The notes under the pieces: model-generated | Database searches by the model: none | Told to the model about the DNA's origin: nothing | What the model saw: the letters and a program-made list of their open reading frames with translations, nothing else | Part shown: positions 30,288-48,419 of the stretch, piece after piece | How the letters are laid out: each line of letters starts with the position of its first letter | How positions within the stretch are numbered: position 1 is the first letter of the stretch | Assembly: GCA_947494305.1 (NCBI GenBank) | Contig: CANLUL010000001.1 | Location: 186,001 to 250,000, forward strand | From: an uncultured Sphingomonadaceae bacterium | GTDB taxonomy: Bacteria; Pseudomonadota; Alphaproteobacteria; Sphingomonadales; Sphingomonadaceae | Direction of reading: 5' to 3' | Length of the DNA stretch: 64,000 bases | Position numbers and translations under genes: made by a program

Positions 30288-31181
30288 TCACTGGCAATAA
30301 AACGGCTCGACATCGGCGAAATAGAAATAGTTTCTGGTATCGGGGTCCAGAATAACAATGCCCAGATCGGCTTCCTCGGGCGCATCGATCGTTTTAAAAT
30401 CTCCCGCAGCTATGGCCCCCATGTCCATACTGGTACCGGATTGTGCGAAACCCATCGTGATCATCACATCATGGTCGGACCGGTTCAATATATTGAACGG
30501 TTTGCCGGGACAAAGGCCGGGATATTCGGGCACTTCAAATTTCACCTGGTCAAAGGTCCGGGGGGTTTCGATCATGCTGTTTGTAATACTGAGCGTATTC
30601 AGCTTATGATCCATTTCCGGTTTTGGCGGCGCCTGCGGTGTCGGTGTTGCCAATTCGGCTGGGCTACTGGTGGAATTGGAACCATCGCCAGCAACCTGCA
30701 TACCGGCGAGATAGGCGAAGGCCGCAAATAGCGATGCCGCCACAATGATACCGCCCCAGACCAGCCGCTTCTTCCGCCGTCTTTGCCGCACAAGATCATT
30801 GGCCATCTGGGCAATTTCGGAAACGGGATCGCCCTTTTGCCGGTAGGCGCTCAGGCCCTTCAGATAAGAGGGCAAATCACCAAAGTCGGTGTCACCCAGC
30901 AAGATCGGCAGCACTCGCCCTTGCGGTGCTTTCCAGACGGCTTTGGCCATTTCCAGCTCGGTCAAGGTGTAGCGACCGGGGGACAGCGAATGTTCGCTGC
31001 ACAGAAACAGCATGATATCGCTCTTGGCAATCTCACTTTGAATGACCCGGTCATAGGCGTCGGATGGTTTTAAATTGCTTTCATCAAAGAAAACATCATG
31101 CCCCGACTGCCGCAGCCGCTCGTTGACATCATTGGCCAGCGTGCGGTCTTCGTTCGCATAAGATATAAAGATTTTGCCCAT
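30288..31181 (-). CDS. Membrane-anchored TIR-domain protein
   Basis: A 297-residue protein. Residues 1-120 form a TIR domain: KIFISYANEDRTLANDVNERL, GHDVFFDESNLKPSDAY, IMLFLCSEHSLSP and YTLTELEMA with the candidate catalytic Glu75. A basic patch (RRRKKR, about 133-138) is followed by one transmembrane helix (142-163) and a low-complexity Pro/Ser linker. An extracytoplasmic beta-rich domain (about 195-297; EVPEYPGLCPGKPFNILN, FADVEPFYCQ) follows. TIR enzymes cleave NAD or signal; a periplasmic sensor coupled to a cytoplasmic TIR is inferred. Confidence 0.8.
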   Translation of the reverse strand: MGKIFISYANEDRTLANDVNERLRQSGHDVFFDESNLKPSDAYDRVIQSEIAKSDIMLFLCSEHSLSPGRYTLTELEMAKAVWKAPQGRVLPILLGDTDFGDLPSYLKGLSAYRQKGDPVSEIAQMANDLVRQRRRKKRLVWGGIIVAASLFAAFAYLAGMQVAGDGSNSTSSPAELATPTPQAPPKPEMDHKLNTLSITNSMIETPRTFDQVKFEVPEYPGLCPGKPFNILNRSDHDVMITMGFAQSGTSMDMGAIAAGDFKTIDAPEEADLGIVILDPDTRNYFYFADVEPFYCQ

Positions 31182-35207: not shown

Positions 35208-38200
35208 TTAGTTTCGTCTGGCAAGCTTTGGCGGAACCGGCCCGATCCAGTCGGCAATATCCGGATTGTCATTGACGAAATAAGGCTGACCTTTGCTGTT
35301 CAGATAGAACCGTTCCATCTCGCTCCGGGTAAAGGGTCTGGAACCTATCCGGCCAAACACAGCCATTTGACCGCCGGTTTCATCTACAGCACGATCACGG
35401 TCCAAACCTTTGGAAAGTGCCAGTGCTGGTTTGGGTGTCTTGGCAAAAGCGATCAGTTCCGGTTTTGGAGCCGGTGAGAAACCATAGTAGGCTTTCTGAC
35501 TATCTGGAGATGTCAGCTGAATGACCTTCAGGCCATTGCGACCGTCGGCGACATAGGCGAACAATGTAGCATTGGTAGACCCGACAATGACATCTTCCGC
35601 ATCATTCATCTGCCCGCCAAAAGTCTCTTTCATATAGATTTTTGGTTCTTCGGGCTTAGTGATGTTGGCAATTACTAGACCTTCATTTTTTGCTGCGATG
35701 TAAGCATAGGTCCGCGCTAGATAAATGCGCTGCGCATTCACAAGCGGAATGGTCCCACTTTCAACAGCAATTGGGTTTTCCATGTCGGTCACATTGAACA
35801 GCTTCACACCATCGGCGTCCGACACCCAGAGATAGCGGAACTGCATCGCTGAAGCACGGGCATCGTTTAGCGGTACGGTAACGACATGGCGCGGTTCCGT
35901 CGGCGTATCTAGATCTATCACCGTCAGGCCAGCATCGGTCGTAATATAAGCGATATGGCCAGCCAAAGTAATATGCCTGGCACCGTTTAACACGCCGCCC
36001 TCGTTCCATGTTAGCGACCGCTTGAAGAAGTTATTGCGGAATTCGCCATCGGCCAAGGTGTTGACGTTTACCAGAATGAGGCCTTCTTCGCTGTCCGTAA
36101 CGACGGCATAATCATAGATCGGATGAAAAGCTTGCTCCTGATTTAGCTCCTGCATTTCTTTGGTATTGCGGGTCGGAGCGATTGGTTGATTGGTCGCCAA
36201 TGCCATGCATGTAGCGTTTTTGGTATCAACATGCGTATCATGACCAATGGATGAGAATGGCGCTTTGATAATCCGTTCGGAGAAGCCTTTGTTCCCAATT
36301 GAGGCCACATCATAAGCTCGGAAACCGCCTTTTCCTTCGGCAACGAAGATATACTCACCGCGCAATTGCAAGCAGCGAACGGCGTCTCCCGTTCCTTGTA
36401 CCACATTCGCAAATTCTTCGAGCGCTTTGGTTTCTCCTGAAAGATCTTTGTCAAATCGGTCACCGCGTACCCAGTTTATCAACTCGCGGTTGTTATCTTC
36501 GACATGCATCCGCCAATAGTCGGGATAAGCATATTTTTGCAGATAGGAACCGATCACCGCTTGGGGTTCATCCCACTCTGTTACGCGGACGGCCTCAAAG
36601 CCTTTTTCCAATCCAACCCAGGCATGCAAGCCTACGAAGTTCACGAAATTCGTTCCTTGCAACATGGTCTGTGCCATGATTGCGTTATTGTCATTGGCGT
36701 CACTGACATGACAATCAGAACATTGCTTGGTCTCATTTTTGCGCACAGTATGCGGGAAGTGCGGTGCAAATGCCTGCGATGAAAACCCTATCGAAGATAT
36801 CGGCGGTTGCTGAACGTAAATACGCTCTCGATTGATATTGGTGGATGAGAGGACCAGTGCTGACGTTGAACGAACCGGAGCAATAATATTGCCCTTGGTT
36901 GTTTGGTGCTTGCCAAGCTGGAACATCTGATCGCGCGCAACCTGCGGATTGTAGGTTGCGTAGTTTCGCGTCGTTCCGCCTTCATATTTGTGGCTTTCGG
37001 CCTGCCAGTTTGCTTCAATCGGTAGATGGCAACCACCGCAACTGGTCGTCCAACTTAGGTGGCAGGTGAAACAGACCATGTTTTCGTCTGTGTGCGCACG
37101 GTCATCTTTGGCGACACCGCTACCAAAACTATATTTGCCGGTGTCCGAACCAGTCTTGGACATGAGTTTTGCCCGTGCAGACTTGAGATTGAAATTGGGA
37201 TGCGAGCGGTCAACGCTGTCTTTGACCAGACTAACCCGCCAGCTCAGTTTTGGATCGGTGATCGAGCGTTGTACAAGCACGCGCTCGCCATTTGCATCCT
37301 GGAACCACTCGAAACGGCGTTGGCCATCAGCATTACGTAACAGGCTCAGATTTGTGCCTTTTGGACGGGCCGCCAGATTGGATGTCATCAGGGTTGGATA
37401 TTCATCGGCAGTGCCGTGGCAATCCTTGCAATTGATCTCAACCGCATTGGCAACTTCTCCGTAAATCAGTCCGTTACCGTGACTGTCTTGGCCAAAGTGG
37501 CAGTCTGCGCACTGCATACCGACCTCGGCATGGATGCTCATCATATGAACAGACTTACCGGGATTGGTGCCTATATCGACGAATTTCTCTTCGCCTTCCT
37601 TGCGGAATTTTTCGGGATCTTCGGGATCGACCATATTGTCAGTGTCAGTGCCATAGGTCGCCTGATTACCGTCAGCATCCAACAAATTGCCTTCGCGGTC
37701 GCGTTTCAGGATCGCGCGGAAATTCCAGCCATGACCATGATAATCGGCAAACTGTGTATCTTCTGCCACTTCATTGACGTCATAAACGTTGCGAAGAAAA
37801 TCAATGTCCGCCCAAAGTCCTTTGGGTGAAGCCCCTTCCGGATTACGATCCAGCACTTTGCGCACTTCTTCGGCGGTTGGGAATTTTTGGGTCTTATATT
37901 TCTTCTGATATTCTTCTTCGCTCATGCCTTCTGGCTTGGGAAGTTTGTTATCCGGACCCGGCCACATATAGGGAGCGTCGGATTCATAGTCCCACATCGT
38001 GTAACCGAGATAGCTGTTCAGGAAGATATTGGGTTGGTGCATATGGCAATTCATGCACTGCGCGGTCGGAATAGCCCTTGTGAAAGCGTGCTGAATAGGA
38101 TGACCTTTTTCGCGTTTGGCCGGATCAATATCCTTGGCATGCTCCTCGCCATGGCCATCGTCAGAATGGCTGTCATCAGCATGACTATCTGACTTTCCGT

Positions 38201-39416
38201 GCGCTTTATCTTCGCCATGACCTTTTCCATACGAAGCATCATAGGTACCAAATGCTCCCACGCGATGCTCGCCTTCAGCGATATTGCGGATTGTCGGATC
38301 TACCGTCTGTGTCTGCCCGTCGCGGCCATATTTGGCCCAGATTGAACTATGGCGTGGTTCACGATCATTGGCGTAAACGACATGGCAACCGGCACAACCG
38401 GACTGACGATAGTCGCCGGGTTGGTCATTGGTGCCCATGAACCACATAAACGGATCATTGAGGCGCGTTTTGTGAATATTGAGAACGGGAATTGCTACCC
38501 GAAGACCCGTCCCGGGGCCGCGATTGGATTGTTTCAGATCAGGGCGTCCCGGCTCTTCCAGACGTTGAATGATGCCACCAATATTGGGCAGGCCAATTTC
38601 GGGGAATTGCGTGTTGATATTGCGCCCGCCTCGCTCAAACACCCGGAAAACATCTCCCGGAGGAATGACATGCCAAGTGGGCAGGGGATAGAGAATGGGC
38701 AATGCGCCGCGCTTTTTTTGCGCTTCTGTTACAGTGCCGTGCGGACTGCCGGGAGACTTGATAGTCGCAGGTTCGCCCTTGCGTGTATAGGCTTCACCAA
38801 AGACATAGTTTTTGAATGGTACGATACCGTTGTTGTAGGCTGCACCACCCCACAGCATGGCGCCGGTAGCCATAAGGGAACGTTCGGATGCTTCGATAAT
38901 TTCTATGTGGCAAGCGCCGCATGCTTCACGTGCAACGCGATAGTCAGATGGGTTCACAAAGCGAACAAACTCGGGTGCTTCCTTGTTGAGGAGGGCATAG
39001 CTACGCTTTGGATTTGCAGAAGAAGGCCAGTGCCAGCTTTCTGGGTATTTTGGCAGAACATGGGCTTTTTTCAGCGCATCCATATAGGCAAGGCTGTTTT
39101 TACCCCAGTCGTTGTCTCCCATAACTGACGCATCGCCGCCATGACAATCCACACAGCCAAGCACTACGGCTGGTGTCTCGTGCATGGTTTTCTGATCACT
39201 ATCGGTATGACAGGACACACACCCCGCGCTCTTCGTTTCAGCAGCATCCCAAGTCTGATTTTGTGGCGCTGGCGGCGTAAAGCTATAATCGATTTTCTGC
39301 GGCTTCTCTTTGCCTGCGGCAAGCAATGTGGAAGCTGGCGCAACCGTAAGTACAAGTGCTCCAATTGCAGCAATAAGTGCCTTTTTGTGATAGTTTAGAG
39401 TTTCAAGTTTAAGCAT
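35208..39416 (-). CDS. Decaheme c-type cytochrome fused to an LVIVD-type beta-propeller
   Basis: A 1402-residue exported protein. A signal peptide (about 1-34) is followed by ten CxxCH heme motifs starting at residues 66, 88, 166, 341, 454, 636, 663, 782, 793 and 899. A His/Asp-rich stretch lies at 397-445 (repeats of HG, SH and DD). From about 1015 to 1340 come six beta-propeller-like repeats (YIFVAEGKGGFRAYDV, YAVVTDSEEGLILVNV, AYITTDAGLTVIDL, YLWVSDADGVKLFNV, YAYIAAKNEGLVIANI, FAYVADGRNGLKVIQL) of LVIVD type. It begins on the stop of the barrel gene (TGATG overlap) and is the last gene of the four-gene set. The combination is not one I know to be characterised. Confidence 0.88.
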   Translation of the reverse strand: MLKLETLNYHKKALIAAIGALVLTVAPASTLLAAGKEKPQKIDYSFTPPAPQNQTWDAAETKSAGCVSCHTDSDQKTMHETPAVVLGCVDCHGGDASVMGDNDWGKNSLAYMDALKKAHVLPKYPESWHWPSSANPKRSYALLNKEAPEFVRFVNPSDYRVAREACGACHIEIIEASERSLMATGAMLWGGAAYNNGIVPFKNYVFGEAYTRKGEPATIKSPGSPHGTVTEAQKKRGALPILYPLPTWHVIPPGDVFRVFERGGRNINTQFPEIGLPNIGGIIQRLEEPGRPDLKQSNRGPGTGLRVAIPVLNIHKTRLNDPFMWFMGTNDQPGDYRQSGCAGCHVVYANDREPRHSSIWAKYGRDGQTQTVDPTIRNIAEGEHRVGAFGTYDASYGKGHGEDKAHGKSDSHADDSHSDDGHGEEHAKDIDPAKREKGHPIQHAFTRAIPTAQCMNCHMHQPNIFLNSYLGYTMWDYESDAPYMWPGPDNKLPKPEGMSEEEYQKKYKTQKFPTAEEVRKVLDRNPEGASPKGLWADIDFLRNVYDVNEVAEDTQFADYHGHGWNFRAILKRDREGNLLDADGNQATYGTDTDNMVDPEDPEKFRKEGEEKFVDIGTNPGKSVHMMSIHAEVGMQCADCHFGQDSHGNGLIYGEVANAVEINCKDCHGTADEYPTLMTSNLAARPKGTNLSLLRNADGQRRFEWFQDANGERVLVQRSITDPKLSWRVSLVKDSVDRSHPNFNLKSARAKLMSKTGSDTGKYSFGSGVAKDDRAHTDENMVCFTCHLSWTTSCGGCHLPIEANWQAESHKYEGGTTRNYATYNPQVARDQMFQLGKHQTTKGNIIAPVRSTSALVLSSTNINRERIYVQQPPISSIGFSSQAFAPHFPHTVRKNETKQCSDCHVSDANDNNAIMAQTMLQGTNFVNFVGLHAWVGLEKGFEAVRVTEWDEPQAVIGSYLQKYAYPDYWRMHVEDNNRELINWVRGDRFDKDLSGETKALEEFANVVQGTGDAVRCLQLRGEYIFVAEGKGGFRAYDVASIGNKGFSERIIKAPFSSIGHDTHVDTKNATCMALATNQPIAPTRNTKEMQELNQEQAFHPIYDYAVVTDSEEGLILVNVNTLADGEFRNNFFKRSLTWNEGGVLNGARHITLAGHIAYITTDAGLTVIDLDTPTEPRHVVTVPLNDARASAMQFRYLWVSDADGVKLFNVTDMENPIAVESGTIPLVNAQRIYLARTYAYIAAKNEGLVIANITKPEEPKIYMKETFGGQMNDAEDVIVGSTNATLFAYVADGRNGLKVIQLTSPDSQKAYYGFSPAPKPELIAFAKTPKPALALSKGLDRDRAVDETGGQMAVFGRIGSRPFTRSEMERFYLNSKGQPYFVNDNPDIADWIGPVPPKLARRN

Positions 39417-41506
39417 CAGAAAGCAAATATCGCATTGAAGAGGATGGAATAATGAAAGTCTCGCGTGTCGGTTTGGTCAAATAGATCCTTGAAGCCATCT
39501 CCGGGTAACAGCGCTGCCCCTGAAAGACGGAAAACAACATTCTGTGTGGACTTTGGTCGATAAATGGCGGCCATTGAAAGATCCCAACCAATGTCTTTAG
39601 GAATCGATCCTTCAACACGCAGAGCTTCCAACGATTCCGTTTTGTGGAACCAAAGATGATTGGCGTTGGCTGAGAGGCGCAATTCCGGTGTAAGATCGGC
39701 ATCAACGCCTACACCAGCCAATATGGTGCCGGGGTTGTTGAAATTACTCTGGCCCTGTTCCTTGGAAGACCGAAGGGAGTTTAATATACCGTTTCTACCG
39801 TTGATGCTTATAACCCGGCCACCACCTGCGAACGGTATCGTCTGTCTGATCCAATAACTCGTATCGGCTCCAGCAAAAATCGGGTTTTCAAAGATTGCGT
39901 CAAAGCCCGCTTCGGTATTGTTGTATGGATTGCCATCACCGCTAGCGAACAAGCCGGAAGCACGAAAACGCCAGAAATCGACGTCATAACTCGCTTCGAC
40001 AGCGCCGAACCAAGCCGCAATATTGGCTGGCTCGCTGGTAAATATGCTGTTTCTATCTTCGCCAAATGCACCGTAAACTTGGCCAGACACATTGATCCGA
40101 CCAATCCGGCCATCAACAGCATAGCCAGGGTAAACTACATCATAGGCACGCCCTCGCAGATCCCCGATTAGGGCAGGGCGAACAGGAAAACCGTTGTCGT
40201 CAATCTCGATATCACTGCGCTCTCGGTTCATATTATAGGTAACGCTGAACTGACTGGTCAGGCCGACAAAGGGCAAATCTTGTCGGTAGAGATTGGCAAA
40301 GAAAATATAGCTTTCGCGCGGTGTCTGGAAAATGTCATTGAGACCACTGTTGGTGTCTTTTTCCAGCTGTACAAATGCACCCAGATTATACTGAATACGG
40401 TTATTGTCTCTCGTACCAAATAGACGGAAACCGAGTTGGTTGTCTTGAAAAAGGAATCCACGGAAATCAGCTTGCATCGGCTGGATTCCAATGCGGAAGC
40501 TGTCAAAGTCATAACGCGCCGATGTGTTGCGGATGTGATAATCGAAAAAGGCTTCCTGTACACCAACAAACCAGTCGGTTCGATTGGAAGTCTTGGACGG
40601 CTCAACGAACAAAACGCGGCGTTCTGGGACGTTTACATGATTGACCTGCGTGGCCAATGTAAGCCGATACTCGACGTCAGGTGGCTTGTAGGCTGTTGAG
40701 CCTTTTATGAGGGCGACGCCAGTAATGAAGGTTTGTGCATAAACCTCCGAACCGGAACGTCCAAATACATCAATATTGTTGGGGCGTTCCGTCGTTTGAA
40801 CGCCGACCGGAATCGGAAAACTGCGGGGTTCAATAATCGTGTCTGAAATGGCATTGACGACAAAAAACCAGTCATCGCCCTTTAAAAAGGATGGCTTTTT
40901 ATCCTCTGGAATAGGCTTGTCACCCTTCAATACATTCTGATTATAAGGGTTGAGCGTGCTGTGACAATTTTTCCGTAATGCAGGAAATACGCCATAGGCC
41001 GATAAATCATCGCGTTTGCTTTTTGGCGGACACAATGTCTGCAAAATTCGCCAACGATCTGGCACCGGAAACTCTTCTGTTGGAAAAGCTTCGGGTGGAG
41101 GAGCACGAACTGCACCTTCGTTAAACTGGGTAACGGCGTCAGGCAGTTCTTTTTGAACACCGGGACGACGGCGGCCATCCATCAATACTTCATCAGCTTC
41201 AATCCCGCCTAGTTCCGGCTGAGGATCGTCAAGCTGCGGTGGAGTCAATATTTCAGGTTGCTCGGGAGTTTGATCAATGATTTGATTTTTATCGAGTTCT
41301 TCCTGTTCATCTCGTTCCGGATTTTTGTCGGTTCCGGGCGGTTTTCGACCAACGCCCGATTGCAGCCAAGCAAACTCCTGCCCAGCAACTAGCGCAGCTA
41401 AAGAAGCTTCCATTTGGCCCAAAGAAGCATTTTGGCGTTCCATTTGTTCCGCTTCGCCGGACATCACCGCTAAGATCGGTACAAAGGATGCAGATAATCC
41501 TCCCAT
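39416..41506 (-). CDS. Outer-membrane beta-barrel-like protein of the cytochrome operon
   Basis: A 696-residue protein. The N-terminus (1-45) is only weakly signal-like and carries a helical MERQNASLGQMEASLAAL segment. A Pro/Glu/Asp-rich linker follows (about 55-135). The C-terminal two thirds have alternating strands (FFVVNAISDTIIEPR, DWFVGVQEAFFDYHIRN, YNLGAFVQLEKDTNS, WRFRASGLFASGDGN) and end in Phe (ILFNAIFAF), the pattern of an outer-membrane barrel. It does not match MtrB/PioB sequences I know. Coupling to the decaheme gene suggests the pore of a porin-cytochrome conduit. Confidence 0.7.
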   Translation of the reverse strand: MGGLSASFVPILAVMSGEAEQMERQNASLGQMEASLAALVAGQEFAWLQSGVGRKPPGTDKNPERDEQEELDKNQIIDQTPEQPEILTPPQLDDPQPELGGIEADEVLMDGRRRPGVQKELPDAVTQFNEGAVRAPPPEAFPTEEFPVPDRWRILQTLCPPKSKRDDLSAYGVFPALRKNCHSTLNPYNQNVLKGDKPIPEDKKPSFLKGDDWFFVVNAISDTIIEPRSFPIPVGVQTTERPNNIDVFGRSGSEVYAQTFITGVALIKGSTAYKPPDVEYRLTLATQVNHVNVPERRVLFVEPSKTSNRTDWFVGVQEAFFDYHIRNTSARYDFDSFRIGIQPMQADFRGFLFQDNQLGFRLFGTRDNNRIQYNLGAFVQLEKDTNSGLNDIFQTPRESYIFFANLYRQDLPFVGLTSQFSVTYNMNRERSDIEIDDNGFPVRPALIGDLRGRAYDVVYPGYAVDGRIGRINVSGQVYGAFGEDRNSIFTSEPANIAAWFGAVEASYDVDFWRFRASGLFASGDGNPYNNTEAGFDAIFENPIFAGADTSYWIRQTIPFAGGGRVISINGRNGILNSLRSSKEQGQSNFNNPGTILAGVGVDADLTPELRLSANANHLWFHKTESLEALRVEGSIPKDIGWDLSMAAIYRPKSTQNVVFRLSGAALLPGDGFKDLFDQTDTRDFHYSILFNAIFAF

Positions 41507-41510
41507 CTAG

Positions 41511-43547
41511 CTACAGCCCCTCACAAACATTTTGATCAGCGGTATCTAAGAACGGTGCGAAAGGGCAATTTACATAGCGCAAGCGAACATTGGCGTTACC
41601 GAGATCGATGACAACATTATCCGCGCGAACGGCTTTGGGGGCATTGCTTATAGTTCCTGTGCGAACGCCGGCGTTGTTCAAACCGAGAAAGCTGACCATA
41701 TCATCTTGATCGATACCATCTCCAGATACACCGATACCGCCGATCAATTGATCACCGCGATAAATCGGAACACTTCCCGGAAAAATCTGAATACCGTTTT
41801 GCAGGCGATTTTGCCCGCCTGTGCCAGCGATAGATGGAATCTGTGTGCAACGTTGTGGTGTGTCATTCGCTGACGCTCCAGCAACGAAGTTCAGATGCGC
41901 GCCGACATTGGGTGTCACCAAGTCGACCTGTAACCCTGTCGCAAAGGGGCTGAATTGTCCTGGCTGTTCAACTGAAAGCGGACCAGCGGGACGACCAACC
42001 TCACCGTCTGGGAAATAAGGACGAGAGAGGTTCCCGCCTGAACGATCGGCAAAAGCCACCGTCCCAGTGAGTGAGTTTTGATCTCCAAGAAATGTCCGAA
42101 CCCGTTGTACATAGTTAGGTACATTGGTTACGCCAGCAACAACGGGAGTGTTCAAGAGTTGATTGGCTGCCACACTGTTCGAGAAAAACGCAGCCGTTCG
42201 CGCTTTCTGGAGTGATACATCAGTGCCAAAAATTGGCCCATCAGGTGAACGGACGATACCCAATATCTGACCATGAGTGTCGACAACGCTAATTGTGGCC
42301 TGCATACGACTATCAAGCGGTTGGCGGATTTGCGCTCTGGACCTTGAAAGTACCAAAAATGCTTCTTCCAGAAGAGCTCTCACTTCTGTCGCAGTGAGCG
42401 GCGCGTTAATAGTAGCGGCATCAGTGCCAGCCCGAATGGGGAAGCGGTTTGCACCGGTCCCATCTGTCAACACAAATGCATCGCGATTTACGAACTCTCC
42501 GGCGGTACTGGCACGTATCCCTGATGCCTCTGTTCCATAGGCTGTTCCGGCTTGTATTGTGCCGTCGCTATATCCGATTACGGGAACCAGATTGCCAAGA
42601 CTGCCATTGATGGCCGCAAAGTTATTTTGCAGCGGAGACAGGTCACTAACCACCATGTCGCTAAAACGTAGTGATGTTCCATCAACCGATATACGGTTTG
42701 CTGCAATAGAAGCTGGTGGTGCGAAACTTTGGATGCCAGCCAAAGCAATGGCTTCTTCAGCATCGACATCCACGTCCAAAATATTTGCATCAAAACCATA
42801 GTCGCCATCGCCCATAACGCCGATTGCGCCAACCACGGTTCCGTTTTTGTAGAGAGGTAATCCTCCTGGATCAGCCGCGAGACCGAGAGGCGATCTTTTT
42901 GGTCCGATCAAAGCGCTCGCGCCACCCATCGGATTGAATCGTTGATTTAGATCGGAGCACGGCAACTGGCTAAATTGTACACCAAATAGAGGTCCGCTCT
43001 CCAAACCAACAGTGGTTGGTGCTGGAGGAAAATGTTCTTGCACGATTTGACTAGCCGTACGTGTCGAAAATGCGTTGCCGCCGCTGGAAAGATATGCACC
43101 CGTAATGGCTTTAGCGATGGCTGCGGTTGTGCTGGGGACCATCGCTCCCTGCAAGCCGACGGTCGCACCGGCAGCAGCATTACCGTCAATTGTCTGTGAA
43201 CTCAGGGCCGTCTGGGCTGGCGCACCATTCATATTGAAGACCGCAAGAACATTACCCACACGGTCCACAACCGCTATTGTGGAGGGTAGATTGCGAGCTT
43301 GCGCTTCGCCAACGGCTTGCGCGATGATTTGTTGAACCTCTGCAACAGTCAAAGACTCTTGGGCAGGTGGTGTGAAGCTTCCACCAGTATTGGGTGGTGG
43401 GGTTGGCGATGGAGGGGGGGTAGGCGATGGGCTTGGCGAGGGTGTTCCACCAAAGTCATTGCTTCCGCCGCCACCGCCTCCGCAAGAGGTTAGAACGAGG
43501 GCCGCCGCCGATATTGCTGCAGTGAGACGAAGACGCCGCATTAACAT
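41511..43547 (-). CDS. Lipoprotein with two HbpS/GlcG-like (DUF336) domains
   Basis: A 678-residue protein. A lipoprotein signal peptide ends in LTSC (Cys22) followed by a Gly run and a Pro/Ser linker. Two HbpS/GlcG-type domains are seen, about 60-330 (LTVAEVQQIIAQAVGEAQ, IAVVDRVGNVLAVFNM) and 385-660 (VRALLEEAFLVLSRSRAQI, ISVVDTHGQILGIVRS). Each is followed by a long insert. The family binds or degrades heme. The genes around it encode multiheme cytochromes, so a role in heme handling or electron transfer at the membrane surface is inferred. The stop lies 4 nt from the barrel gene start. Confidence 0.82.
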   Translation of the reverse strand: MLMRRLRLTAAISAAALVLTSCGGGGGGSNDFGGTPSPSPSPTPPPSPTPPPNTGGSFTPPAQESLTVAEVQQIIAQAVGEAQARNLPSTIAVVDRVGNVLAVFNMNGAPAQTALSSQTIDGNAAAGATVGLQGAMVPSTTAAIAKAITGAYLSSGGNAFSTRTASQIVQEHFPPAPTTVGLESGPLFGVQFSQLPCSDLNQRFNPMGGASALIGPKRSPLGLAADPGGLPLYKNGTVVGAIGVMGDGDYGFDANILDVDVDAEEAIALAGIQSFAPPASIAANRISVDGTSLRFSDMVVSDLSPLQNNFAAINGSLGNLVPVIGYSDGTIQAGTAYGTEASGIRASTAGEFVNRDAFVLTDGTGANRFPIRAGTDAATINAPLTATEVRALLEEAFLVLSRSRAQIRQPLDSRMQATISVVDTHGQILGIVRSPDGPIFGTDVSLQKARTAAFFSNSVAANQLLNTPVVAGVTNVPNYVQRVRTFLGDQNSLTGTVAFADRSGGNLSRPYFPDGEVGRPAGPLSVEQPGQFSPFATGLQVDLVTPNVGAHLNFVAGASANDTPQRCTQIPSIAGTGGQNRLQNGIQIFPGSVPIYRGDQLIGGIGVSGDGIDQDDMVSFLGLNNAGVRTGTISNAPKAVRADNVVIDLGNANVRLRYVNCPFAPFLDTADQNVCEGL

Positions 43548-43574
43548 TCACTCCAATTCATGCGTGGCCCCAAT

Positions 43575-44981
43575 TCATTTCAATGCTCTGATGGTGCGTA
43601 CGGCGCTGCCCAAAGCACGGCGGAATTTAATCGGTTGATAGCTATTCGGATTGTCAACAGCGGCGTAGGCTGTGTTTATCTGACCTCGTAGGCTGGAAGC
43701 AGAAGCTTCGCTAACTTGACCGCCATTGACCAAACCGTTCAGCAATGTGTCGATCGCCATGACTGACTGCACGCTGCCTTCGTAATCGGTAAAGCGAGGT
43801 GATATTGCCTGTCCCGCAATAGTTTCCATGATTTGGAATGTTTGCGCACGATTGAAATTGGCGCGGGAAAAGCGATCCGCCAATGTAACAGTCGTTTGCC
43901 TCAATCGAGCTGCAGCCTGAGTAGCTGGGCCGCGTCCTTGGCCCATGGCTGCATGGAATGCTTTTGACCGGCTATCAAATTGTGTCACCAAATCGGGTGC
44001 TGCGACACGCACAGCTGCGCTTAACATGATCATGTTTTCATCATTATAAGGCGGCATTCCTTCGGGAATAGGGCGGCCAGGGTTGTTGACTGATTTGGGT
44101 CGCGCAGAAGCCTCGTCATAAATTTGGCGGTGACAGCTGTGACAGTCATAGAAATAGAATTCCGGAAAAATACCTTCAGTTGCCAACGCAGGCTTCGCAA
44201 AGAGATTTAACGAGCGTTCGAGCGCCATGGCTTGTCCAACGGCCCAGAATTGCACACCGTTAGTTCGACCTTTACGCCTTACGTAGTCGGCATCTTCATC
44301 ATGATGTTGTTGGAGCGTCGAAAACAAGTCCATTTCAAAAGAGATACGTGGATGGCCAGCCGCCATGATGCGGTGATCAACAAATTGACCTGACTTGGCG
44401 CTACCAAAATGACAGTCGAGACAAACACTGGCACGGGCTTTCGGATTGTCGAGAGGGATCAGACCTTTTGAAACATTGCGAGAATGACTGGCGCCAACTG
44501 CATAGTGAGCAGACAGCCAACCTGATGCCGGACCATGACAAGCTTCACAACCGACACCATCATTTGTTTGAAAACGAGGACCCTTTTTTGCAGCCGGGGT
44601 GCTATGGCAACCTAGGCATTCGCTCGAAGTAGCAGCATTCCCAATTCCGAGCCGATTTGCAATAGCGATGCTGCGCGGCTCCCTTAGGACACGAAAAGCG
44701 CGACTATGTGCGCCGCCAGGGGTGGATTCCTCCTGCCAGCGCATAAGTTCGTCCTGACGGACAACTTCGCCATCGGCCTCTTGCCGGCCATGACAGGTTG
44801 TACCGCCACAGCTCGCGACCCCCATATGTGTCCCGCTAGCTAAATCCTGCGATGCCTGAACTGGTTCAGGTGCGGCAAAGGAAGACGCCAACAGAGCAGT
44901 GGCAGCCAATAATATACAGAAAAGGCCTGCAGCGAGTGCTGACCCATTACGTTTCCAAGAAACGAATATCCCCTTTTGCAT
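43575..44981 (-). CDS. Multiheme cytochrome c (five heme motifs)
   Basis: A 468-residue exported cytochrome, first gene of the four-gene set. Signal peptide about 1-43. Five heme-attachment motifs: an unusual CGGTTCH (CX4CH) at 58-64, then CLGCH near 122, CEACH near 145, CLDCH near 187 and CHSCH near 284. The second half has no heme motif and may be helical (SKAFHAAMGQGRGPATQAAARLRQ). The layout resembles cytochrome c554-like electron-transfer proteins. It lies 27 nt upstream of the HbpS-like gene in the same direction. Confidence 0.85.
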   Translation of the reverse strand: MQKGIFVSWKRNGSALAAGLFCILLAATALLASSFAAPEPVQASQDLASGTHMGVASCGGTTCHGRQEADGEVVRQDELMRWQEESTPGGAHSRAFRVLREPRSIAIANRLGIGNAATSSECLGCHSTPAAKKGPRFQTNDGVGCEACHGPASGWLSAHYAVGASHSRNVSKGLIPLDNPKARASVCLDCHFGSAKSGQFVDHRIMAAGHPRISFEMDLFSTLQQHHDEDADYVRRKGRTNGVQFWAVGQAMALERSLNLFAKPALATEGIFPEFYFYDCHSCHRQIYDEASARPKSVNNPGRPIPEGMPPYNDENMIMLSAAVRVAAPDLVTQFDSRSKAFHAAMGQGRGPATQAAARLRQTTVTLADRFSRANFNRAQTFQIMETIAGQAISPRFTDYEGSVQSVMAIDTLLNGLVNGGQVSEASASSLRGQINTAYAAVDNPNSYQPIKFRRALGSAVRTIRALK

Positions 44982-45224: not shown

Positions 45225-46664
45225 TTAATTCAGTTTGCGCCGGATTACGAGATTCCGAATCTCTGTCATATCCTCCATGGCGAATCTTATGCCTTCACGC
45301 CCAACACCACTGTCTTTAACGCCGCCATAGGGCATATTGTCTACACGGTAAGAGGAGACGTCATTGACGACTACACCACCAACATCCAATTTGTCCCATG
45401 CATCTAGAGTTTTGAAGAGGTCGCGGGTGAAAATACCGGCTTGCAGGCCGAATTTGCTGTCATTCACTTCATCAAGCGCTGCATTGAAATCGCTGAATTT
45501 TGACAGAATGGCCAATGGACCAAATGCTTCCTCGACAACCGCATCTGCAGACCGATCGACATTTTCGAGCAATGTTGCTTCAAGCATATTACCTGAGCGT
45601 TTGCCGCCACATAGCAATGTCGCACCGCCGTCAACCGCTGCCTGGATCCAGCCATCGAGGCGCTTGGCTTCACCTTCTGAGATCATGGGACCAATGAATG
45701 TTTTTGGATCTTTTGGATCGCCAGCAATCAGTGTTGCGGTTTTGGCGACGAGCATGTCCCTGAATTGATCGTAAATATCTTCGTGAATGATGATGCGCTG
45801 AACGCCGATGCAGCTTTGGCCGGATTGGTAAAAAGCGCCAAATATGATTCGATCCAGAGCGTCTTCCAAATCCGCATCATGGTCAACGATGACGGCTGCA
45901 TTCCCGCCTAGCTCAAGGACCACCGGTTTTTTGCCAGCTTTTGCTTTTAGATCCCAACCGACGCCCGGCGATCCTGTGAAGCTCAGTAATTTTAGTCGAT
46001 CATCGACCGTAAAGAGATCTGCACCATCGCGACTGGCGGGTAAAATCGAAAAGGCACCCTTCGGCAAATCAGTTTCTGCCAGCACTTCACCCATGATGAT
46101 CGCGCCGAGTGGTGTTTTGGAAGCAGGTTTCATGACAAAAGGGCATCCCACTGCAATAGCTGGCGCTATTTTATGTGCAGCGAGGTTCAGCGGAAAGTTA
46201 AAGGGTGATATAAAGCTGCAAGGGCCTATTGGAACACGTTTCCACATCCCTTGATAGCCCTTGGCGCGCTCAGAAATATCGAGCGGTTGAACTTCGCCAT
46301 AATTACGGACGGATTCTTCTGCAGCAATCCGAAATGTGTCTATGAGGCGTCCGGTTTCGCCTTCCGCATCCTTGATCGGTTTACCGGCTTCGACGCAGAG
46401 CGCATAGGCCAATTCATCAAAGCGTTCCTGAAAACGGTTTACACAATGCTGCAACACATTCTGACGCTCATAACTGGCCATTCGCGCCATTGGCTCGGTC
46501 GCAGTTACTGCTCCTGCAATAGCTTCCTCGATAACATCTGGTGTGGCGAGTGCAGTTCGAAAAGCTACCTCGTTGGTGAACTTGTCCGTAACTTCCAAAT
46601 CTTCATTTGGCTGCACTGCTACATTGTTGAGGTAGAGCGGATAGACATCTTTAAGTTTGGTCAT
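45225..46664 (-). CDS. Aldehyde dehydrogenase family protein
   Basis: A 479-residue NAD(P)-dependent aldehyde dehydrogenase. It shows VLELGGNAAVIV with the catalytic Glu, GQSCIGVQRIIIHE with the active-site Cys, and the end YGGVKDSGVGREGIRFAMEDMTE. The substrate is not apparent; sequence features resemble the lactaldehyde/glyceraldehyde-type group. ATG at 46664 is chosen because GGGAGG and GAAGAAA lie upstream; an earlier in-frame ATG exists at 46691. It follows the acetolactate-synthase-like gene and may share its transcript. Confidence 0.92.
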   Translation of the reverse strand: MTKLKDVYPLYLNNVAVQPNEDLEVTDKFTNEVAFRTALATPDVIEEAIAGAVTATEPMARMASYERQNVLQHCVNRFQERFDELAYALCVEAGKPIKDAEGETGRLIDTFRIAAEESVRNYGEVQPLDISERAKGYQGMWKRVPIGPCSFISPFNFPLNLAAHKIAPAIAVGCPFVMKPASKTPLGAIIMGEVLAETDLPKGAFSILPASRDGADLFTVDDRLKLLSFTGSPGVGWDLKAKAGKKPVVLELGGNAAVIVDHDADLEDALDRIIFGAFYQSGQSCIGVQRIIIHEDIYDQFRDMLVAKTATLIAGDPKDPKTFIGPMISEGEAKRLDGWIQAAVDGGATLLCGGKRSGNMLEATLLENVDRSADAVVEEAFGPLAILSKFSDFNAALDEVNDSKFGLQAGIFTRDLFKTLDAWDKLDVGGVVVNDVSSYRVDNMPYGGVKDSGVGREGIRFAMEDMTEIRNLVIRRKLN

Positions 46665-46739
46665 TTTCTTCTTTTCCTCCCTCCCAGTCATGGCAGGGGT
46701 CCGGGGTGATTTTGGGGTAACCTTTTATGGTCTACCTTG

Positions 46740-46763
46740 GCCCCTCCCGCAAGCGGGAGGGGC
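46740..46763. repeat. Perfect 11-bp inverted repeat between two genes
   Basis: GCCCCTCCCGC-AA-GCGGGAGGGGC with an 11-bp stem and 2-nt loop. It is followed by TTTAG on the plus strand; neither strand shows a long T-run. It lies in the 108-nt gap between the acetolactate-synthase-like gene and the aldehyde dehydrogenase gene, where a partial terminator or attenuator could act on the reverse-strand transcript. Confidence 0.6.
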
Positions 46764-46772
46764 TTTAGCGAT

Positions 46773-48419
46773 CTATACCTTAGAGCTTAGGTCTTGTATT
46801 TCGTGATTGAGAATCCGGTCGTTGTCCGAATAATCTACCGGACAATCGATCAAGTGCACACCTTCGCTGTTCAAGCATTTATCAATTGTTTCCGTAAGAT
46901 TTTGCGCACTGGTAATTCGATGTCCATTGGCGCCATAGCTTTCGGCGTATTTTACGAAATCGGGATTGCCATAGGTTAAGCCAAAATCTTCAAAGCCCAT
47001 ATTGGCCTGTTTCCAACGGATCATCCCATAGCTGCTGTCATTTAGGATCAACACGGTGATGTTGAGTTTCAACCGAACGGCGGTTTCCATTTCCTGACTG
47101 TTCATCATGAAGCCGCCATCGCCGCAAATCGCCATCACTTTGCGATCTGGATAAACCATCGCCGAAGCCATCGCGGAAGGAAGTCCTGCACCCATTGTGG
47201 CGAGTGCATTGTCCAGCAGCACGGTGTTTTGCTGACGAGCATTATAGTTGCGAGCAAACCAGATCTTGTAGACGCCATTGTCGAGACAGATAATTCCATC
47301 AGCAGGCATCGCATCACGAACGACTTTTACCAGATGTGGTGGATAGATTGGGTGACGCATATCGCCGTCCAAGGAAGCAGTATGCTCTTCCTCAGCTTTG
47401 CGCGCTTTGTACATGAAATCCCAATTCCAGCTGCCAGAAGGAACAATATCCTCTTTCATCTGCCAGATGGCGTTACCGATATCACCGATCACTTCGACGT
47501 GCGGGAAATAGACCGGATCTATCTCTGCTGTATTCATGGACACATGGATTACTTCTGTACCACCGTCTTTCATGAAGAAAGGTGGCTTTTCAATCACATC
47601 ATGGCCGACATTGATGATCATATCAGCGGATTCGATTGCTCGATGAACAAAGTCGCCCGCGGAAAGCGCTGCGCATCCCATAAATTCAGGCCGTGTTTCA
47701 TCGACAACGCCTTTGCCGAGTTGGGTCGTCACAAACGGTATACCGGTTTTTTCAATAAATTGGGTCAACATCCGACCGGTTACTGTTCGGTTGGCACCAC
47801 CGCCTATAACCAGAATCGGCGACTTGGCCGCTTCTATTTTCTTGGTAGCAGCCCTAACCGCTTTTTCTTCTGCGGTGGGACGACGGGATGTGCTTGGGAC
47901 AATAGGACGCGAATCAGTTTGTTCATCTGCAACATCTTCAGGGAATTCTATATGCGTGGCACCGGGCTTTTCCTCTTCAGCAAGACGAAATGCTTCTCGA
48001 ACGCGGCTTGGGATATTATCCCCACCGGCAAGTTGGTGCGTGAACTTAGTAATTGGGCCCATCATATCGACAACGTCAAGAATCTGGAATCGCCCTTGTT
48101 TTGATTTTTTGATCGGTTTTTGCCCAGTAACCATCAAAATTGGCATTCCGCCTAGTTGAGCATAGGCAGCGGCGGTTACTAAATTGGTTGCGCCGGGCCC
48201 CAATGTAGCCATACAAACGCCAGTCTTTCCGGTATGGCGGCCATAAGTCGCCGCCATGAAGCCGGCGCCTTGTTCATGCCGAGTCAAAATCAACTTTATT
48301 TGCTTAGACCGTGACAAGCTATCCAGCATGTCCAGATTTTCTTCACCGGGAACGCCGAAAAGATATTCGACGCCTTCATTTTCCAGACATTCTACAAATA
48401 GATCGGATGCTTTTGTCAT
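46773..48419 (-). CDS. Acetolactate synthase large subunit-like TPP enzyme
   Basis: A 548-residue thiamine pyrophosphate enzyme. GVPGEENLDML holds the activating Glu, GPGATNLVTAAAYAQL follows, and GDGGFMMNSQE ... LNDSSYGM carries the Mg/TPP-binding motif. The middle domain has the FAD-type fold of acetolactate synthases. No small regulatory subunit is adjacent, and the neighbour is an aldehyde dehydrogenase. A catabolic or 2-keto-acid ligase/decarboxylase role is therefore as likely as branched-chain amino-acid synthesis. Confidence 0.85.
   Translation of the reverse strand: MTKASDLFVECLENEGVEYLFGVPGEENLDMLDSLSRSKQIKLILTRHEQGAGFMAATYGRHTGKTGVCMATLGPGATNLVTAAAYAQLGGMPILMVTGQKPIKKSKQGRFQILDVVDMMGPITKFTHQLAGGDNIPSRVREAFRLAEEEKPGATHIEFPEDVADEQTDSRPIVPSTSRRPTAEEKAVRAATKKIEAAKSPILVIGGGANRTVTGRMLTQFIEKTGIPFVTTQLGKGVVDETRPEFMGCAALSAGDFVHRAIESADMIINVGHDVIEKPPFFMKDGGTEVIHVSMNTAEIDPVYFPHVEVIGDIGNAIWQMKEDIVPSGSWNWDFMYKARKAEEEHTASLDGDMRHPIYPPHLVKVVRDAMPADGIICLDNGVYKIWFARNYNARQQNTVLLDNALATMGAGLPSAMASAMVYPDRKVMAICGDGGFMMNSQEMETAVRLKLNITVLILNDSSYGMIRWKQANMGFEDFGLTYGNPDFVKYAESYGANGHRITSAQNLTETIDKCLNSEGVHLIDCPVDYSDNDRILNHEIQDLSSKV

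Follow-up and report, generated by a model that had tools for sequence, protein, structure and literature searches.

A conserved four-gene multiheme cytochrome locus in a Sphingomonadaceae genome, probably the outer half of an NAD(P)H-fed trans-envelope electron chain

Introduction

Do two multiheme cytochromes, a lipoprotein and a barrel-like protein encoded side by side in a sphingomonad genome form a route for electrons across the outer membrane, and what would feed it? Most of what is known about extracellular electron transfer comes from Shewanella, Geobacter and iron oxidisers. The genes in question occupy positions 35208-44981 of a 64,000-nucleotide stretch of DNA (hereafter the window; positions 186,001 to 250,000 of contig CANLUL010000001.1, assembly GCA_947494305.1) from an uncultured Sphingomonadaceae bacterium, and a first-pass annotation, made from the sequence alone, had read them as a putative new porin-cytochrome conduit whose component roles mirror the Mtr type. 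We find that this set is conserved, that it is inherited together with a second module that probably encodes inner-membrane and cytoplasmic components, and that the four genes are probably only half of a pathway. On balance we favor the reading that they form the outer half of a trans-envelope chain that carries electrons from NAD(P)H to the cell surface and responds to cyclic nucleotides.

Results

Organization and conservation of the four-gene set

All four open reading frames (ORFs) lie on the reverse strand (Table 1), and their order of transcription is the pentaheme cytochrome (PentaH), the HbpS-type lipoprotein, the barrel protein and the decaheme cytochrome (DecaH). PentaH and the lipoprotein are separated by 27 nt (43548-43574), the lipoprotein and the barrel protein by 4 nt (41507-41510), and the barrel stop codon overlaps the DecaH start codon as TGATG at 39416. 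The ORFs, spacing, overlap and heme counts listed in the first-pass annotation were all reproduced. The window genome (G000; 3.35 Mb in 11 contigs) contains a single DecaH match at E <= 10; Parasphingorhabdus and Sphingorhabdus are, among the matches listed, its nearest named relatives (85-88% across the best segment), and the host therefore probably belongs to their group.

A scan of contigs returned at least 591 stretches encoding DecaH matches, from which we retained the 80 best loci; filtering by length and stops left 78 DecaH, 71 barrel, 68 HbpS and 66 PentaH sequences from these. The conservation search that had been proposed as a check on the four-gene set found the genes complete, collinear and on the same strand in 67 of the 80 loci, and in 12 of the 13 incomplete loci DecaH lies less than 4 kb from a contig end. 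Nor is the set rare: DecaH reached E=0 in 75 of 296 genomes of the order and was found in 29 of the 385 genomes of a class sample (26 of them outside the family) and in 11 of the 398 genomes of a phylum sample (one outside the class). Cultured genera are among the carriers, and DecaH is encoded on 13 of the 72,556 plasmid records in PLSDB. One of the plasmids, a 959-kb conjugative Sphingobium megaplasmid (NZ_CP020539, locus L142), carries both modules together; its annotation names the DecaH homologue “multiheme c-type cytochrome,” PentaH “cytochrome c family protein,” the HbpS protein “heme-binding protein” and the barrel “hypothetical protein.” Within another family of the order, weak DecaH-like stretches (G086:C13:3529-6482; E 1.6e-11 at 36%, and 2.9e-6) sit in open frames of 803 and 925 aa, and they perhaps represent a distant conduit.

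The two cytochromes

Every cysteine and histidine of the 10 CXXCH motifs in DecaH is invariant in all 79 aligned sequences, the window included. Over the same 79 sequences, 440 of the 1402 DecaH columns are invariant, which places the locus far from chance, and conservation outside the heme motifs is also high, at about 0.9 for residues 251-350. The N-terminus is signal-like. Pfam supported the LVIVD-type propeller named in the first-pass annotation (PF08309, 39.2 bits against a cut-off of 20.2), with the best stretch at residues 1228-1255 and six repeats counted by eye. When DecaH was searched against the PDB, no chain matched at E 1 (single sequence) or 0.01 (profile); the number of homologues aligned was 51 of 78 for the structural model and 21 of 78 for the profile. 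A sub-threshold match to the Pfam MtrC/F domain (22.8 bits against a cut-off of 30) counts toward homology with Mtr. The best NCBIfam match is ExtM (NF040943, E 1.1e-18, 66.9 bits); we rejected both ExtM and HmcA as family names for DecaH, as the scores fall far under the respective cut-offs.

PentaH carries a CX4CH motif at residue 58 and CXXCH motifs at residues 122, 145, 187 and 280, and every cysteine and histidine of the five is kept in all 67 sequences, the window included. The CX4CH site would bind heme as well. Pfam assigns the protein to PF13435 (35.8 bits against a cut-off of 20.8), its sole matches in the PDB were cytochrome c-554 (E 0.0041) and a pair of Hmc chains, and the protein is probably exported, judging from its N-terminus.

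The barrel and the lipoprotein

Motif counts gave zero heme motifs for both the barrel protein and the lipoprotein. The 696-aa protein is predicted to be an outer-membrane beta-barrel: AlphaFold2, run with 66 of the 71 barrel relatives in the alignment, modeled 18 beta-strands, and 70 of 71 homologues end in F or Y. In a Foldseek search with this model, the top PDB match was AlgE (E 1.7e-15; template-modeling score 0.66 by target length), and the nearest folds listed, from AlgE and the OprD/Occ family, are substrate channels. The barrel protein matched no Pfam or NCBIfam family, and its profile had no sequence match in the PDB at E 0.1. By eye, its N-terminus resembles an atypical signal peptide in which the basic n-region is absent.

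The lipoprotein had been described as carrying two HbpS-type domains, and Pfam recognized the HbpS-like family in three stretches (84.6 bits against a cut-off of 25). Residues 580-626 resemble EfgA (6bws, E 1.9e-6). Its lipobox was read by eye, and the strict lipobox pattern matched in 59 of 68 homologues; eight sequences that missed the pattern were inspected, of which five have a Cys box, two (L066 and L068) have none and one is a fragment.

A second operon encodes a candidate inner module

Downstream of DecaH, clustering of the neighbors in the 80 loci brought out a second operon, which is mostly encoded on the opposite strand and is complete with four genes in 39 loci. Its products are an 828-aa flavoprotein that combines a pyridine-nucleotide/FAD domain, two domains for binding cyclic nucleoside monophosphates (cNMPs) and a C-terminal 4Fe-4S region; a ~292-aa membrane protein resembling b-type cytochromes; an FHA-domain protein of ~600 aa that has a hydrophobic segment (by eye) and 10 CXXCH motifs; and a calcineurin-like phosphoesterase. 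Neighbor clusters 15 and 30, which lie opposite the barrel and PentaH genes, were dropped as artefacts of the longest-ORF rule. At the copy of the operon in the window genome (L100), a divergent CcmH-like TPR gene adjoins it.

Component tables were built from 36 flavoprotein and 37 cytochrome b sequences that remained after length filters. In the flavoprotein, the positions of the FAD motif GSGPAG are kept in 34-35 of 36 sequences and those of a second Rossmann motif, GxGDAG, in 35-36; the 16 cluster cysteines of four 4Fe-4S motifs, and the Glu/Arg of both cNMP cassettes, are present in all 36. Based on the best PDB matches, the tandem cNMP region resembles the RI regulatory subunit of protein kinase A (PKA; E 5.1e-21), the iron-sulfur part a formate hydrogenlyase subunit, and the flavin part thioredoxin-reductase and YpdA/Bdr-type reductases. 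No conserved CXXC pair was seen in the flavin domain when the cysteine table was read by eye. A preference for NADPH is hinted at by an NRR-type motif, which is incomplete in the window genome's copy. The cytochrome b has five histidines in 37 of 37 sequences. The FHA protein of the window genome matches the FHA family at 22.5 bits (cut-off 20.7) and has 10 CXXCH. The phosphoesterase scored 141.9 bits against SpdA (cut-off 400) and 92.9 against CpdA (cut-off 225) in NCBIfam, and we treat its possible role as a cyclic-nucleotide phosphodiesterase as a lead, not a classification.

A search for NapC/NirT proteins (PF03264) gave 0 matches in the window genome, and among 14 control genomes the family matched E. 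coli only. Because the window genome has no NapC/NirT protein, CymA-like entry of electrons from quinol is unlikely.

In the region upstream of PentaH, 12 of the 80 loci have a CHASE2 adenylate/guanylate cyclase gene and 9 have a gene whose product is probably secreted and has no Pfam match; loci with such genes include L020, L024, L025, L032 and L036. The proximity of a cyclase to a chain that carries cNMP sites is suggestive.

Co-inheritance and linkage of the two modules

The flavoprotein was detected (E <= 1e-150) in 75 of 296 genomes of the order, and this set is identical to the set with full-strength DecaH. The two genes lie <15 kb apart in 40 of the 75 genomes and 15-100 kb apart in 4; in the remaining 31 they are on different contigs or >100 kb apart, a number that fragmented assemblies may inflate. 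Linkage alone does not account for the co-inheritance. Within each of six genera (g2, g3, g4, g6, g7 and g16), some genomes are positive and others negative, and the two modules vary together. In the class sample, all 29 DecaH-positive genomes carry the flavoprotein.

We then compared 20 distant regions, picked by hand among the 29 positive genomes that fall outside the family (17 of 26 in the class sample and 3 of 3 in the phylum sample). In 17 of the 20, the six genes for flavoprotein, cytochrome b, FHA-decaheme, HbpS, barrel and DecaH are collinear and on the same strand. As for the other three, no inner module lies within the L130 region, L131 ends inside the FHA-decaheme gene and L134 is a 7.7-kb contig. 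It is thus plausible that the four genes of the window split off from a single chain, and we infer that the joined six-gene state is ancestral.

A gene for a small, probably exported protein of ~150 aa stands between FHA-decaheme and HbpS in 6 of the 20 distant regions (for example, L128 14915-15367), and the one product scanned had no Pfam match. In L141 (G902), a two-partner-secretion exoprotein (PF05860; 4372-8061) is encoded near PentaH.

Type II secretion genes

A GspE-like cluster lies near 5 of the 20 distant regions, from families f36 and f94. Pfam confirmed type II secretion system (T2SS) proteins E, F and K plus a secretin in G493 (L139) and GspH in G381 (L138). Two secretin matches were found in the window genome; one lies ~58 kb away on the contig of the set, the other on a different contig. 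In Shewanella, the T2SS has been implicated in moving MtrC and OmcA to the surface (PMC1974784).

Feature coordinates and other genes of the window

Table 1. Locations of the four genes, their subregions and the associated modules. Positions refer to the window unless a locus (L) is named.
Feature	Location	Strand	Description
PentaH, 468 aa	43575..44981	-	Pentaheme c-type cytochrome, probably exported; proposed periplasmic carrier
Lipoprotein with HbpS-type domains, 678 aa	41511..43547	-	PF03928; lipobox LTSC, Cys22
Outer-membrane beta-barrel protein, 696 aa	39416..41506	-	Predicted from model; heme-free
Barrel domain, residues 213-696	39419..40870	-	AlphaFold2 model; preceded by a long variable proline-rich segment
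DecaH, 1402 aa	35208..39416	-	Decaheme cytochrome, exported; LVIVD-type propeller at the C-terminus
Ten-CXXCH region of DecaH, residues 66-903	36708..39221	-	Motif positions
His/Asp/Glu-rich loop of DecaH, ~residues 396-430	38127..38231	-	Length differs among relatives compared
LVIVD-type propeller region of DecaH, ~residues 1015-1305	35502..36374	-	Limits read from sequence
Second operon, copy of the window genome	G000:C5, locus L100: 6843-9329, 9329-10210, 10226-12031, 12083-12931		
Putative alternative outer pair	L143 3793-7309; L144 3960-7461; L145 12747-16165		

Upstream of the set, window positions 45225-48419 encode an aldehyde dehydrogenase and an acetolactate-synthase-like protein (names read from sequence). 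Both genes are present in 24 of 80 relatives, each at > 400 bits, and the same two are found in L130, from another family, with 78-79% identity. The pair may be functionally linked to the set, for example as a source of NAD(P)H. At 30288-31181, an ORF reads by eye as a TIR-domain protein with one transmembrane segment.

Discussion

A proposed route from NAD(P)H to the surface

The porin-cytochrome reading of the locus gains from the kept gene order, the invariant heme motifs, the predicted 18-strand barrel and the co-inherited inner module. What can be read directly from the genomes comprises the genes, their heme and cluster motifs, the intact nucleotide-binding signatures, the co-inheritance of the modules and the contiguous six-gene run in distant genomes. 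From these we infer that the proteins would assemble into a complex with a defined order of electron transfer, an outward direction, a gate and an exposed terminus at the surface.

In the chain that we propose, cytoplasmic NAD(P)H would reduce the FAD domain of the flavoprotein, which would pass electrons to the four [4Fe-4S] clusters of the same protein. Binding of cyclic nucleotide to its two cNMP domains would gate the entry of electrons, and the CpdA/SpdA-like phosphoesterase is encoded in the same operon. From the clusters, electrons would proceed to the b-type membrane cytochrome, to the membrane-anchored FHA-domain decaheme cytochrome, to PentaH as carrier, and on to DecaH docked in or on the 18-strand barrel, with the HbpS-type lipoprotein as an outer-membrane partner. 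It is speculation that this lipoprotein holds DecaH at the outer membrane. DecaH would then deliver electrons to an extracellular acceptor, for which iron, humic substances or quinones are speculative candidates.

Several results weigh against this proposal. Concerning the coupling of the two halves, they are unlinked in the window genome, on different contigs, and 7 of the 36 flavoprotein genomes in the class sample have no DecaH. Among these seven, the contig of L149 ends within HbpS, L146 and L148 have the inner module and PentaH only, and L147 has the flavoprotein alone in the stretch examined. The other three (L143, L144 and L145) have the inner module and PentaH plus a different pair, made up of a protein with 5 CXXCH and one of 533-538 aa; two of the latter were scanned and had no Pfam match, and their C-termini look barrel-like by eye. 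The inner half, then, does not always feed the HbpS/barrel/DecaH conduit, and based on these three genomes one inner chain may serve alternative outer modules. PentaH occurs in 7 of the 17 contiguous distant runs and in none of the examined stretches of the other 10, and at L079 the upstream space is present, yet matches to HbpS and PentaH are absent.

Concerning the individual proteins, a lipobox was absent from DecaH in 77 of 78 homologues, so DecaH is not anchored in the manner of MtrC; the lone pattern (L062) lies upstream of the likely start codon. The barrel model has a moderate mean pLDDT (predicted local distance difference test) of 65, and its N-terminal ~150 residues are unreliable. 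The AlphaFold2 model of DecaH residues 40-1012 (pLDDT 39.6) is unusable, and docking of DecaH in the barrel stays a proposal because this heme-domain model failed. The name cytochrome b comes from a single homologue, whose Pfam match scored below threshold (26.2 bits, cut-off 30.1), and the window genome's protein matched no Pfam family at E 1e-4. In-frame stops were counted in 4 of the 75 flavoproteins and, once, in the DecaH of G272.

Alternative explanations

The set could instead be a reductase for one soluble compound: DecaH would be periplasmic, the barrel would admit the substrate, the HbpS domains and the propeller would bind it, and electrons would stay inside the cell. The missing DecaH lipobox agrees with this arrangement, as do the substrate-channel folds nearest to the barrel and the strong conservation of DecaH outside its heme motifs, for example at residues 251-350. 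Against it, ~25 hemes between the inner membrane and the barrel seem, in our opinion, excessive; three genomes pair the inner module with another cytochrome and barrel-like protein; and T2SS genes adjoin some of the distant loci. We regard a soluble-compound reductase as rather unlikely.

Electrons might also flow inward from a donor outside the cell, for example Fe(II), Mn(II) or a cathode-like surface, in the manner of MtoAB or PioAB and with the flavoprotein running in reverse. Related conduits have been assigned either direction (in FeGenie, MtoAB counts as a potential oxidase or reductase of iron; PMC7005843). The family of the hosts is largely aerobic, which would suit such a process; however, transfer from iron to a cytoplasmic NAD(P)-type flavoprotein would be strongly uphill, and no energy-coupling subunit was recognized by eye among the ORFs of L100. 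Inward flow appears to us quite improbable.

Finally, surface reduction of ferric or heme-bound iron for import, not respiration, would fit the HbpS-type domains (PF03928, “haem degrading protein HbpS-like”) and the aerobic habit of many hosts, for which iron is scarce, but no TonB receptor, siderophore or heme-oxygenase gene was found among the seven recurring neighbors scanned with Pfam, an objection of little weight, and we consider this explanation very doubtful.

Implications

If the outward chain from NAD(P)H is correct, an apparently complete and conserved path with ~25 c-type heme motifs, would run from a cytoplasmic flavin to an outer-membrane barrel. The genomes indicate such a path in 75 of the 296 sampled from the order and in other alphaproteobacterial families, in hosts usually regarded as plain aerobic heterotrophs. 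The entry protein unites an NAD(P)-type flavin, four iron-sulfur motifs and two cyclic-nucleotide sites, which makes gating of electron export by a second messenger testable. More tentatively, many aerobic alphaproteobacteria might possess a modular system for extracellular electron transfer that bypasses the quinone pool and is fed by NAD(P)H through a single flavin/iron-sulfur protein, gated by two PKA-like cNMP-binding domains, with an inner chain of flavoprotein, cytochrome b, FHA-decaheme and pentaheme proteins pluggable into different outer conduits, of which HbpS/barrel/DecaH is the commonest here; we hold this broader view to be possible and less than probable.

Comparison with known systems

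Searches of the open-access literature, mostly by title and abstract, found no description of the set, which gives weak support to its being undescribed. A survey of about 60,000 assemblies reported 76 further multiheme protein families (PMC11475568), and genes of the set may already be listed without function in its supplements.

Among single families, ExtM, a cytochrome of a selenite/tellurite operon, is the best NCBIfam match of DecaH; however, its score is to be read against a cut-off of 800 bits, and the best stretch covers 50 residues around two heme motifs. The Desulfovibrio ferrophilus clusters DFE_0448-0451 and DFE_0461-0465 likewise encode multiheme cytochromes with beta-propeller (NHL) proteins, but as described in PMC9769857 the propellers are separate proteins and there is no apparent porin-cytochrome conduit.

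Structures of Mtr proteins are present in the PDB. The set shares with MtrCAB, MtoAB and PioAB the layout of a periplasmic multiheme relay, a barrel and a large multiheme cytochrome, with a decaheme terminal protein, and to this extent the likeness to Mtr drawn in the first-pass annotation holds. It does not extend further: DecaH and the barrel have no sequence match in the PDB, DecaH has no lipobox, and a CymA-type donor is missing. MtrB-type barrels are predicted to have 28 strands (PMC4245776), MtrC is a lipoprotein, and electrons enter through the quinol dehydrogenase CymA (PMC1974784), whereas here the predicted number is 18 and the genome has no NapC/NirT protein. We therefore rejected membership in the Mtr/Mto/Pio group on the lack of PDB matches for DecaH and barrel, the strand number (18 vs ~26-28), the absent DecaH lipobox and the absence of CymA/NapC.

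By layout, the set belongs instead with conduits of the porin-cytochrome c (Pcc) type, exemplified by OmbB-OmaB-OmcB of Geobacter, which combine a heme-free barrel with a co-encoded c-type cytochrome and, mostly, a larger multiheme cytochrome (Shi et al. 2014, PMC4245776). Neither “Alphaproteobacteria” nor “Sphingo-” appears in the main text of that paper. The Pcc barrels have 18-22 predicted strands, their periplasmic c-type cytochromes have 5-14 hemes, and the porins share 8 to 100% identity among themselves (PMC4245776); the 18 predicted strands of the barrel and the 5 heme motifs of PentaH fit these ranges, and DecaH has 10. Unlike Pcc conduits as described there, the set has an LVIVD propeller on its large cytochrome, an HbpS-type lipoprotein and an NAD(P)H/cNMP/FHA inner module.

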